NCBI GenBank assembly: GCA_023256835.1
Contig: JALREE010000308.1
Location: 1 to 32,672, forward strand
Length of the DNA stretch: 32,672 nt
Direction of reading: 5' to 3'
Origin: Pseudomonadales bacterium
Lineage (GTDB): Bacteria > Pseudomonadota > Gammaproteobacteria > Pseudomonadales > Pseudohongiellaceae
Positions within the stretch are counted from its first letter, which is position 1. The number at the start of each line of letters is the position of its first letter. The notes beneath the pieces were generated by a model that saw only the letters and a list, made by a program, of their open reading frames with translations, ran no database searches and was not told the DNA's origin. Both the position numbers and the translations under genes were made by a program. Shown one piece after another: positions 4,798-9,167 of this stretch.

Positions 4798-5262
4798 TCA
4801 GTTGGCGGTGGAACCGGCGGCGCTGGTCTGGGCATTCGCCGCGCCAGTTCGGCGGAAGAGCGCCTGCTGATTCTGTACCAGTGCGCATACAACATGGTAG
4901 TCCGGCTGACAGCTGAGTGCGCGTACCATGGCGGTGTTGTCATCGCCCAGCTGCACCAGCACCCGTGCCACAACCCCCTGGTATTCGACATCGAGCGTGG
5001 CGCTGTTGCCCCTGATCTCCCCGATGCTGTTGCGCCATTCGTAGCCCATGGTCACGAGGGGCTCAACATTCAACTGATCGTTCTGATGGGTGACTCTGAG
5101 AGTGATGAGACTCCCTTCCGCGTTCCAGATGCCTGACCACTGAGGGGACGGCTGGGCACTGCCGGGCTGGGCGAGGAGCTGCGCCGGCAAGCCCAGCGCC
5201 ACGGCCATGACTCCGGTCGTCCGCGTCAACAGACGCGTGAACTTCTCCACCTGAATTTGCAT
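4798..5262 (-). CDS. Hypothetical exported protein
   Basis: 154-aa ORF with an N-terminal hydrophobic stretch ending LPAQLLAQ (signal-like), compatible with the gene layout. Confidence 0.65.
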   Translation of the reverse strand: MQIQVEKFTRLLTRTTGVMAVALGLPAQLLAQPGSAQPSPQWSGIWNAEGSLITLRVTHQNDQLNVEPLVTMGYEWRNSIGEIRGNSATLDVEYQGVVARVLVQLGDDNTAMVRALSCQPDYHVVCALVQNQQALFRRTGAANAQTSAAGSTAN

Positions 5263-5289: not shown

Positions 5290-5850
5290 CTAGAACGGCC
5301 CTGTCAGCGCAAACCCGAACAGGGGCCCATGAAACACCAAAAGTGCGCTGTAGGCAATCATGCCCAGCAGGATGGCGGCGGCGTCCCATTGCAGCGCCGG
5401 TGCCACCGGCGTCATGGGGTGCTTGCGTTCGCGCACGACCACCTGCAGCAGCGCCCATGCGCTGGGCACTCCGAACAGCAGGATTGACGCCAGATCCCCA
5501 TTCGACAGCAGATGCGCGATGCCCGCGAGCGCCAGACCGACGAGCAAGGGATGACGAACAAGTGCGCGGGTGTGGGAATCCGGCAGCAGTCCGGCAACGA
5601 ACACGAGACACGCGGAAATCATCAGCAGATGGGTGCCGTCACGCAACGGAAACGGCGGTACCCAGATCTGGATGAAAGCGGCGGTGCTCTTGCCGGCAAT
5701 CACCAGTGCGACGCCGACCACCACTGCGGCCGATACCAGGGCGAGCAGGCGAGGACGACCCAGTGCATGCGCGAGAGTCCGACCACGCTCGCCCGAGCAC
5801 GCCGCATGTGCACCGATGCACAGTGCCAGTCCAAGTATCAAGAGGATCAC
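5290..5850 (-). CDS. NnrU family membrane protein (GTG start)
   Basis: Multi-TM protein with LILGLALCIGAHA, RHPLLVGLALAGIAHLLSNGDLASILLFG, typical of NnrU proteins. Confidence 0.8.
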   Translation of the reverse strand: MILLILGLALCIGAHAACSGERGRTLAHALGRPRLLALVSAAVVVGVALVIAGKSTAAFIQIWVPPFPLRDGTHLLMISACLVFVAGLLPDSHTRALVRHPLLVGLALAGIAHLLSNGDLASILLFGVPSAWALLQVVVRERKHPMTPVAPALQWDAAAILLGMIAYSALLVFHGPLFGFALTGPF

Positions 5851-5937
5851 GAGTTTGTCCGTATCCAGCCGGCATCACCGGCTCCCGAGTGTGGCGGGCG
5901 AAGATACTATGGCGTGAAATCGATGTATATCGGAGGC

Positions 5938-5976
5938 AAAAAAAACCGGAGCACTCCATGGGGTAGCGTGCTCCGG
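5938..5976 (-). terminator. Strong intrinsic terminator on the minus strand between nnrU and oxyR
   Basis: Minus strand: CCGGAGCAC-GCTACCCCATGGA-GTGCTCCGG followed by eight T residues; the plus strand has no T tract. Confidence 0.88.
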
Positions 5977-6019
5977 CAAGGGCCTGTCACTCGTATTGCG
6001 GCGGTGTCTCTCAATACAT
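5938..6019 (-). ncRNA. Candidate OxyR-dependent small RNA (~80 nt), OxyS-like in position
   Basis: -10 TATGAT at 6031..6026 (minus); 5' stem GTATTG/CAATAC; 3' intrinsic terminator; no meaningful ORF; OxyR-like site immediately upstream. Confidence 0.6.
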
Positions 6020-6055
6020 GGCGCGATCATAGGCCTGCCGTTGTGGATACATGAA

Positions 6056-6092
6056 ATGGATTAAAGCTATTGCGACGATATCAAAAGTCGAT
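6056..6092. promoter_or_regulatory. OxyR-type operator in the oxyR upstream region
   Basis: ATGGATTAAAGCTAT-tgcgacg-ATATCAAAAGTCGAT fits ATAGnTnnnAnCTAT-N7-ATAGnTnnnAnCTAT at 15 of 20 fixed positions with exact spacing. Confidence 0.65.
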
Positions 6093-6127: not shown

Positions 6128-7048
6128 ATGCATCATCTGCCCACCACCAAGCAGCTGCGTTACTTCGTTGCCCTGGACCAGATCGGGCACTTCGGCAAGG
6201 CGGCAGAGGCCTGCTTCGTGTCCCAGCCGGCTTTCAGCGTAGCCATCCGTGAGCTGGAGAGCACGCTGAACATTCAGCTGGTGGATCGCACGAACAAGAA
6301 CGTCACGGTCACGAATCTGGGGCGGCAGATCGCCGTGCGGGCGCGCCAGGTGCTGCGGGATCTTGAAGAGCTGGTCGACATCGCTCAGGGAAATCAGCAG
6401 CCGCTGACCGGGCAGCTGAAGCTGGGGGTTATCCCGACGATTGCCCCGTTCCTGCTGCCGCGCCTGCTGCCCGCTCTGCGCAAGGCCTATCCCGATCTCA
6501 AGCTCTATCTGAAGGAAGATCTCACCGAGCGAGTCTACGCCCATTTGATGGATGGCGAGCTCGACATCATCCTGATCGCGCTGCCCTACGATCTGCGCAA
6601 TGTGACCGAGCTGTCTCTGTTCAAGGATCGTTTCTACCTGGCGCATCAGGCGAAGAGCGCGCTGGTGCCCAAGGATGCCCGTCAGGTCAGTGATCTGCCC
6701 GAGGACAGCATCCTGTTGCTCGAGGACGGCCACTGCCTGCGCGATCACGCGCTGACTGCCTGCAGCATCAACAATGCCGACAAGGTCAGCGACATCGCGG
6801 CCACCAGTCTGCTGACCCTGGTGCAGATGGTCGACGCAGACCTGGGGGTGACTTATCTCCCGGAAATGGCCATCGGCTCTTCCTTGCTGAAGAACACCCG
6901 CATCAAGACCACGCCGCTGGACAAGGACAGCTTCCGGGAGATCGGCCTGGTCTGGCGCCGCGCCAGCACGAGGGGGCAGGAGTTCGAGTTGCTCGGGGAC
7001 TTCATCAAGCAGAACTACCTTTCGAGCAAGGCAGCCGACGCTTCCTAG
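6128..7048 (+). CDS. oxyR: Hydrogen peroxide-responsive LysR regulator OxyR
   Basis: LysR HTH at N-terminus (QLRYFVALDQIGHFGKAAEACFVSQPAFSVAI); redox segment LLEDGHCLRDHALTAC with the C-x8-C spacing of OxyR. Confidence 0.93.
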   Translation: MHHLPTTKQLRYFVALDQIGHFGKAAEACFVSQPAFSVAIRELESTLNIQLVDRTNKNVTVTNLGRQIAVRARQVLRDLEELVDIAQGNQQPLTGQLKLGVIPTIAPFLLPRLLPALRKAYPDLKLYLKEDLTERVYAHLMDGELDIILIALPYDLRNVTELSLFKDRFYLAHQAKSALVPKDARQVSDLPEDSILLLEDGHCLRDHALTACSINNADKVSDIAATSLLTLVQMVDADLGVTYLPEMAIGSSLLKNTRIKTTPLDKDSFREIGLVWRRASTRGQEFELLGDFIKQNYLSSKAADAS

Positions 7049-7178: not shown

Positions 7179-9167
7179 ATGTCCCTGCCTTGTGTTGTGC
7201 TGCGTCGACTGCGTGTCGCGCTGCTTCTCGCCGTTTCTGCCACTGCGACGCTGCCCGCGGTGGCCGCCGAAGCCCCGGACTTCCTGTTGCTGGACGACCG
7301 CGGTCAGGCCGTGAAACTGCATTACCACCGCGATGCCGATGCGGTGGTCCTGATGAGTCATCGCCGCGACTCCGCTGCCGTGGCGACGGCGGCCGCGCGT
7401 GTGGAACAGGAGATCGCGCGCCATGCGCAGCAGCAGGTCCCCTTCTTCCTGATCAATGCCGAAGCCGGCCTCACGCGCGAGGACGCCGCCGCCGACAGGA
7501 AGACGCATGGCATCACCGCACCGCTGCTGCTGGACGACACCGGCCTTGTCACGACGACCCTCGACCTGCAGCATGCCGGTGAAGTCCTGGTGATCGACCC
7601 GGCGCGCTGGGAGATCGTCTATCAGGGCCCTGCGACCGCACAGGCCGACGGCTCGGGGGATAACTATCTCGCGCAGGCGCTGGAGGCCGCGCTCCAGGGC
7701 AAGTCCCTCGCGCAGGCCCGTCGCACGCCCGCCGCTGATGCCGGCTTCGAGCTCCTGACGCTGGCCTCGGCGGCCAGCGTGCCAGCATATGCCACCGACA
7801 TTGCCCCCTTGCTGGTGGAAAAGTGCGCCAGCTGCCACCGCCCCGGCGGCATCGGACCCTGGGCCATGAACAGTCATCAAATGGTGCAGGGCTTCTCGCC
7901 CATGATCCGCGAAGTGATCCTGACCCGGCGCATGCCGCCCTGGCACGCCGACCCGCAGGTCAATCGGTTCAAGCACGACATGAGCCTGAGCATCGAGCAG
8001 GCACAGACTCTGGTGCGCTGGATCGATGCGGGAGCCCCGCGTGGCGCGGGCGAGGACCCGCTGCTGGCGGTGGTCGAACCGGACAATGCCTGGGAGCTGG
8101 GCGAGCCCGATCTGATCGTCGATCTGCCTTCGTTCTCCGTGCCGGCCACTGGCACGCTGGACTACCAGATCCTGAGCGTCGACAACCCGCTCGATCACGA
8201 TGTCTGGGTGCGTGCCGTGCAGATCGTGCCCAGCGATCGTCAGGTGCTGCATCACGCCATCGCCACCTTCGGCCTGCGCGACGAGCCTATGGACATCGAC
8301 CTGGGCACGCCGATCGGCGACGCCTTGCTGCAGTCCCAGTTGATGACCTTCGTGCCGGGCAACGAGATCTACGAGTATCCCGAGGGCACGGGCATCCTGG
8401 TGCCGGCCGGTGCCACCTTCTTCAGCCAGATGCACTACACCACCTATGGCCGCGAAACCGTGGATCAGACCCGCATCGGGCTGTACTTCGCCGAGGAGCC
8501 GCCGGAGTACACCCTCCAGCACTATGCCATCCTCAATGTCGACATCGAGATCCCGCCGGGCGAGAGTCAGGACGAGGAGCGGGCCTATTACCAGTTCCAG
8601 AAGGACGCGGTGATCTACAGCCTCTTCCCTCATGCGCATTATCGGGGCCGAAGTGCCAGCTTCAGTGTGATCTACCCCGACGGTCGCGAGGAACTGCTGC
8701 TGTCCGTGCCGCACTACGATTTCAACTGGCAGCGTTACTTCCAGCTGGAGGAGCCGCTCCAGGTGCCGGCGGGCACGCGACTGATCCACAGCATGGTGTA
8801 TGACAACTCTGACAACAATCCGAGCAATCCGGACGCGACGGCGCAAGTGAGCTTCGGCGAGCAGACCTGGGAGGAAATGCTCTATGGCGGGGTGTCTTTC
8901 CGCTATGCCAGCAAGGCGGACGACGTGCAGCAGATCAATCGGCAGGAGTATGTGACGAGTCTCAGCATGGGTTTCATGGACACCAACCAGGATGGCAGGA
9001 TCGTGCTGGACGAGATGCCGGAGCGCGCGCGCCAGCGCCTTGCCATGGCCTTCGTCGTGCTCGACAAGGACAAGTCAGGCGGGCTGGAATTCGCCGAGTT
9101 CCATCAGTTGATGACCACCCAGCGACAGGCTCAGGCGCGTTCGGACGGCGCCGCAGTGAACCGATAG
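7179..9167 (+). CDS. Exported multidomain protein: degenerate redoxin + c-type heme domain + PHM-like copper type II monooxygenase + EF-hands
   Basis: Signal peptide; redoxin-like N-terminus without CxxC; CASCH heme motif; VLHHAIA, QMHY, FPHAHYRG histidine motifs; EF-hand loops DTNQDGRIVLDE and DKDKSGGLEFAE. SD ggagg before the ATG at 7179. Confidence 0.82.
   Translation: MSLPCVVLRRLRVALLLAVSATATLPAVAAEAPDFLLLDDRGQAVKLHYHRDADAVVLMSHRRDSAAVATAAARVEQEIARHAQQQVPFFLINAEAGLTREDAAADRKTHGITAPLLLDDTGLVTTTLDLQHAGEVLVIDPARWEIVYQGPATAQADGSGDNYLAQALEAALQGKSLAQARRTPAADAGFELLTLASAASVPAYATDIAPLLVEKCASCHRPGGIGPWAMNSHQMVQGFSPMIREVILTRRMPPWHADPQVNRFKHDMSLSIEQAQTLVRWIDAGAPRGAGEDPLLAVVEPDNAWELGEPDLIVDLPSFSVPATGTLDYQILSVDNPLDHDVWVRAVQIVPSDRQVLHHAIATFGLRDEPMDIDLGTPIGDALLQSQLMTFVPGNEIYEYPEGTGILVPAGATFFSQMHYTTYGRETVDQTRIGLYFAEEPPEYTLQHYAILNVDIEIPPGESQDEERAYYQFQKDAVIYSLFPHAHYRGRSASFSVIYPDGREELLLSVPHYDFNWQRYFQLEEPLQVPAGTRLIHSMVYDNSDNNPSNPDATAQVSFGEQTWEEMLYGGVSFRYASKADDVQQINRQEYVTSLSMGFMDTNQDGRIVLDEMPERARQRLAMAFVVLDKDKSGGLEFAEFHQLMTTQRQAQARSDGAAVNR

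Follow-up and report, generated by a model that had tools for sequence, protein, structure and literature searches.

OxyS is the classic stress sRNA, and targets such as fhlA and nusG are repressed by its pairing at the ribosome-binding site. Pairing over ribosome-binding sites is documented for OxyS, whose homologs have been reported from enterobacteria only (PMC5793797). The OxyR motif of E. coli consists of ATAGnTnnnAnCTAT twice, 7 nt apart, with four ATAGnt repeats (PMC5002191). Among other sRNAs, sX13 uses CCCC loops to act on G-rich motifs close to start codons (PMC3771888), and conservation of Xoo2 has been reported in X. oryzae only (PMC3039613). No report of an oxyR-divergent sRNA outside the enterobacteria was found in the open-licence literature.

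The window analyzed here, a stretch of 32,672 nucleotides from a Pseudomonadales bacterium, carries on the minus strand at 6031..5938, divergent from oxyR, a -10 box followed by a predicted transcription unit of about 82 nt, whose core is C-rich and which ends in an intrinsic terminator (Table 1). We interpret this unit as a stand-alone sRNA gene that is activated by oxidized OxyR, acts in trans and replaced a peroxiredoxin-glutaredoxin gene independently of OxyS, a reading to which we give a probability of about 0.78. The gene, its conservation, the OxyR motif, the spacing, the covariation of the terminator and the pattern of gene replacement were computed. The predicted sRNA gene beside oxyR is conserved and previously undescribed in a mostly uncultured gammaproteobacterial group.

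The predicted transcription unit in the window

The minus-strand letters and coordinates read in the earlier note were correct, namely TATGAT at 6031..6026, GTATTG and CAATAC at 6017..6012 and 5998..5993, the GC stem, and the T8 run ending at 5938. The arms of the terminator stem read CCGGAGCAC/GTGCTCCGG on the minus strand and enclose a C-rich loop. The predicted 82-nt RNA has a folding energy of -25.9 kcal/mol, compared with -18.6 +/- 2.7 for shuffled sequences (z -2.7), and is more stable than every one of 200 shuffles. A simple promoter and terminator scan of the window called neither a sigma-70 promoter at the sRNA, because there is no good -35, nor a terminator, because the stem contains an internal mismatch. 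Since the scan was blind to both elements, conservation had to decide.

A short peptide gene under OxyR control could be proposed from the sequence AGGAAGG, which is similar to a ribosome-binding site, but no conserved ORF, start codon or reading frame was found across the homologs compared; a peptide gene is extremely improbable and was rejected for want of a conserved frame. With a putative promoter and an intrinsic terminator of its own, a conserved core and no ORF, the unit has the attributes of a stand-alone sRNA gene, as judged from sequence.

Table 1. Features of the predicted sRNA gene and its neighbours (window coordinates)
Feature	Position	Strand	Basis or remark
Small RNA	5938..6019	-	About 82 nt; start deduced from the -10 box
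-10 box TATGAT	6031..6026	-	Direct reading and spacing from the OxyR-box motif
OxyR-box-like element ATCGACTTTTGATATCGTCGCAATAGCTTTAATCCAT	6056..6092	-	Scores highest for the 37-bp OxyR motif of E. coli
C-rich core ACAGGCCCTT, presumed mRNA-pairing site	5978..5987	-	Near invariance within the genus
Terminator hairpin with CCCC loop	5945..5977	-	Fold and covariation
T8 tract, transcript end	5938..5945	-	Direct reading
nnrU, neighbour	5290..5850	-	Pfam PF07298 NnrU, E 2.7e-31
TATCTT, likely -10 of nnrU's own promoter	5901..5906	-	Downstream of the sRNA terminator
oxyR, presumed regulator	6128..7048	+	NCBIfam, E. coli alignment, PDB matches

Conservation of the predicted RNA among relatives

The oxyR ortholog is present in three genera of one family at 74-97% identity, and below it there is a gap in identity down to about 47%, where a paralog beside rubrerythrin is found; a rubrerythrin-like gene adjoins this paralog at loci L021-L030. 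The named records of the ortholog loci are metagenome assemblies, mostly labelled Gammaproteobacteria and in one case Pseudomonadales. The sRNA unit was found at 26 of the 30 ortholog loci, corresponding to 25 of 29 genomes with two copies in one assembly, always on the strand opposite oxyR and with the box first, then the -10, a variable 5' part, the C-rich core and the terminator. The two oxyR-sRNA loci of that assembly (L003 and L038, both in G009) each resemble a different relative, and the duplication is probably due to a mixed metagenome bin.

Three blocks stand out in identity among the five closest genomes, namely 6051-6070 (0.98), 5971-5990 (0.97) and 5891-5910 (0.91). The first of these, at the OxyR box, is the most conserved intergenic block. 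A covariance model (R1) built from 12 sequences matched the window at 5938-6007 and detected the sRNA at oxyR in 12 of 14 genomes of the same genus with E <= 5e-15, the next-best matches elsewhere having E values of 6e-5 or weaker. Within the genus there is one strong copy per oxyR locus and no second strong site. The model also detected copies of the sister genus at the equivalent position, the best three having E values from 6e-6 to 4e-5.

The RNA is deleted or degraded in four of 29 genomes and is therefore dispensable in some lineages. Loci L006 and L007 show a clean deletion of the sRNA with the OxyR box retained, L051 has lost core and terminator, and in L052 the sRNA is degenerate and its stem eroded; the -10 is absent in three of these four (L006, L007 and L052). 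L051 and L052, with their decaying sRNA, belong to smaller sister-genus genomes.

The C-rich core, with an identity of 0.97, is near invariant as ACAGGCCCUU in the genus and takes the form UCCCUCUU in the sister genus, both forms being complementary to a G-rich sequence of Shine-Dalgarno type. The unpaired probability of its CCCTT is 0.78 in the window copy and ranges from 0.10 to 1.0 across loci, and the accessibility of the CCC(C) terminator loop is about 1.0 in most homologs. In the genus, three of eight pairs of the terminator stem are changed on both sides; in the sister-genus set seven of 12 are, more than in any of 500 shuffles or any slid version. There the stem varies around a constant CCC-AA loop, which is what a loop used for pairing should show. 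In intact loci the U tract is at least T6.

Conservation in relatives, with compensatory changes in both stems, had been named in the earlier note as one check of the proposed gene. The main claim survived it, since the -10, the C-rich core, the terminator and the U tract are kept in 25 genomes and the terminator covaries, but the 5' stem did not survive this comparison. The GTATTG/CAATAC pairing is private to the window genome and is already broken in the nearest relative (L002, OxyR 97% identical), which has instead another small hairpin, GUGUU-GAGG-AACAC.

Ahead of the core, between the -10 and the terminator, nearly all homologs contain GGAA, placed in a hairpin loop at L002-L005. An RNA acting mainly by binding a protein through this conserved GGAA, for example as a CsrA decoy, rather than by base pairing, is very unlikely, as there are just one or two GGA sites per sRNA, whereas known CsrA sponges have many. 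Moreover, the window copy is altered at 6006-6012 on the minus strand (GAGAGAC in place of GAGGAAC), yet its C-rich core is intact.

Regulation, neighbouring genes and possible targets

The best NCBIfam model for the window oxyR product is OxyR, although below the cut-off (227 vs 329 bits), and its best PDB matches are also OxyR. Alignment to E. coli OxyR gives 36% identity and shows that the protein has the EDGHCLRDxAxxxC redox motif, the two cysteines of which correspond. Next to oxyR, the gene at 7182-9167 (plus strand) encodes an unusual combination of an AhpC/TSA domain, a Cu-monooxygenase C-terminal domain and an EF hand.

The box upstream of the sRNA agrees with the E. coli OxyR motif at 15 of 20 fixed letters, a score reached by none of 100 shuffles, and in 30 of 30 loci the motif scored best at one conserved element. 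Across loci the box agrees at 12-16 of the 20 letters, where shuffles average about 11 and the E. coli oxyR-oxyS region reaches 16; at L009, L017 and L045 the box score alone is not above shuffles. A TA...T hexamer lies 23-24 nt past the box in 25 of the 26 loci with an intact unit, whereas chance would place one there in about 4% of loci. The distance from box to GATAAT in E. coli oxyS, counted on the sequence, is 23 nt, as is the box-to--10 distance of 11 divergent promoters at peroxiredoxin loci of other lineages. From the box match, the fixed spacing and the OxyR redox motif we therefore infer, with good support, that OxyR activates the gene, and the sRNA looks switched on by OxyR. The proposal that an sRNA gene missing from the annotation lies divergent from oxyR is supported by the box match and fixed spacing, together with the conserved core, the covarying terminator and the lack of a conserved ORF.

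On this strand nnrU follows, 88 nt past the terminator, and the earlier note had offered as an alternative that the RNA is an attenuated leader of nnrU. Transcription would then start near 6019 and mostly end at the terminator, with read-through into nnrU being regulated. A conserved -10-like block belonging to nnrU lies after the terminator, however: the 5891-5910 block stands above its flanks in identity, and GTATCTT or a variant of it recurs upstream of nnrU across the genus. The sister genus keeps the RNA, but there another gene comes next, a homolog of window 4798-5262 (51% identity over 105 aa), so that a constant downstream gene sharing the sRNA promoter was not found across the two genera. 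In addition, two genomes devoid of the RNA still have nnrU, and no alternative antiterminator pairing was seen conserved. Because nnrU has a -10-like block of its own and the sister genus has a different gene in its place, a leader of nnrU is improbable. Window 4798-5262 (minus strand) encodes a conserved small protein with no Pfam family and lies behind nnrU here; in the sister genus its homolog comes directly after the sRNA.

For the stand-alone sRNA gene the following course of events is proposed, in which OxyR activation, peroxide induction, pairing targets and use of Hfq are inferred. Peroxide would oxidize OxyR at two conserved cysteines, and oxidized OxyR on the box would recruit RNA polymerase to the -10, giving an RNA of about 82 nt that terminates at the T8 tract. 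The core (GGCCCUU in the window copy) and the CCCC terminator loop could then pair in trans with G-rich Shine-Dalgarno regions and block translation of the target mRNAs, probably with Hfq, the gene for which was present in 14 of 14 genomes tested. By analogy with OxyS and sX13, the sRNA may thus repress translation of mRNAs with G-rich Shine-Dalgarno regions under peroxide stress. Exact complements of the core ahead of ATG were counted in two genera, and the counts had no clear excess over a reversed-pattern control. Ribosome-binding sites with the complement recurred in two or three sister-genus species ahead of genes for a PurB-like protein, an efflux-type membrane protein and a small membrane protein; this search revealed no target common to most species, and none is therefore claimed. 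Against the proposed reading weigh the uneven accessibility of the core, the incomplete box matches, the loss of the gene in four genomes and the want of a shared target in this search. The locus supplies about 26 natural sRNA variants for target prediction.

Origin and comparison with known systems

When the closest OxyRs from outside the family (mostly 53-64% identity) have a recognisable divergent neighbour, it is most often a peroxiredoxin-glutaredoxin gene. In the OxyR tree the sRNA-linked clade (support 0.997) is nested among peroxiredoxin-linked OxyRs, the next nodes having support of 0.91 and 0.87, and E. coli OxyR lies far from it; deeper nodes are weakly supported (0.22-0.74). The full peroxiredoxin-glutaredoxin fusion was missing from 17 of 17 clade genomes tested, which contain elsewhere just a match of about 160 residues. 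In other gammaproteobacterial lineages, divergent peroxiredoxin(-glutaredoxin) genes with equal box-to--10 spacing were seen at L149, L150, L155, L157, L160, L161, L164 and L168, and a Dps-like gene occupies the divergent position at L084 and L085.

Given the shared promoter geometry and the nesting among peroxiredoxin-linked OxyRs, the sRNA probably took the place of a peroxiredoxin-glutaredoxin gene whose older divergent promoter was already activated by OxyR. Takeover of that existing promoter, independently of OxyS, is the most likely origin; it is probable and not proven, because the deeper nodes of the OxyR tree are weakly supported. Tentatively, and with somewhat less than even confidence, we suggest that OxyR-controlled sRNAs beside oxyR evolved at least twice, and that here the RNA, having replaced the gene of a peroxide-scavenging enzyme at one and the same OxyR promoter, may descend from the 5' UTR of that gene, its conserved AGGAAGG being a relic ribosome-binding site. 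The locus would then be a rare case in which the gene replaced by an sRNA can be named, and an OxyR-linked sRNA that apparently arose a second time, independently and in another order, would make the coupling of a peroxide sensor to a regulatory RNA a recurrent solution.

Searches of Rfam at curated and loose thresholds gave just chance-level matches to Xoo2 (RF02241; 15.2 bits vs a cut-off of 45, E 0.45-1.1), sX13 (RF02232; 21.4 bits vs 50 for one homolog, the window being unmatched) and Pseudomon-1/ErsA (RF01719; 24.9 bits vs 50, one homolog only). OxyS (RF00035) matched neither the window nor five homologous loci and was absent among matches up to E 10, and R1 scored 10.3 bits on E. coli oxyS, at the oxyS terminator end.

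The earlier note had found no evident sequence similarity to E. coli OxyS, in agreement with the lack of an Rfam match and of recognisable homology, and had left the choice between an independent and a highly diverged sRNA. A true OxyS homolog, inherited at this locus from a shared ancestor, would account for the shared position, orientation, OxyR box and box-to--10 spacing, and for the CCCUUG stretch and C-containing terminator loop present in both RNAs. Such descent is nevertheless highly unlikely, for besides the Rfam result and the low R1 score, the OxyRs nearest this clade adjoin peroxiredoxin genes, E. coli OxyR is remote, and enterobacteria are the sole reported range of OxyS homologs (PMC5793797). 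Of the two origins, the OxyR tree and the peroxiredoxin neighbours favour the independent one.

Compared with known systems, the predicted sRNA shares C-rich (CCCC) loops with sX13 of Xanthomonas, which is not oxyR-linked, has three C-rich loops and is Hfq-independent. Pseudomon-1/ErsA of Pseudomonas is similar in its C-rich linker and C-rich terminator loop, and its locus and regulator are other than those of the oxyR-linked sRNA. The OxyR-linked divergent peroxiredoxin-glutaredoxin genes match the sRNA in position and promoter geometry, but are protein genes, and those genomes with the sRNA that were tested lack the fusion. Like OxyS, the predicted sRNA points away from oxyR across an OxyR box, with a 23-nt distance from box to -10, and it is of similar size and ends in an intrinsic terminator with a C-containing loop. 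It differs from OxyS in having no sequence or covariance-model homology to it, in belonging to another OxyR lineage, and in occupying the place of the relatives' peroxiredoxin gene.
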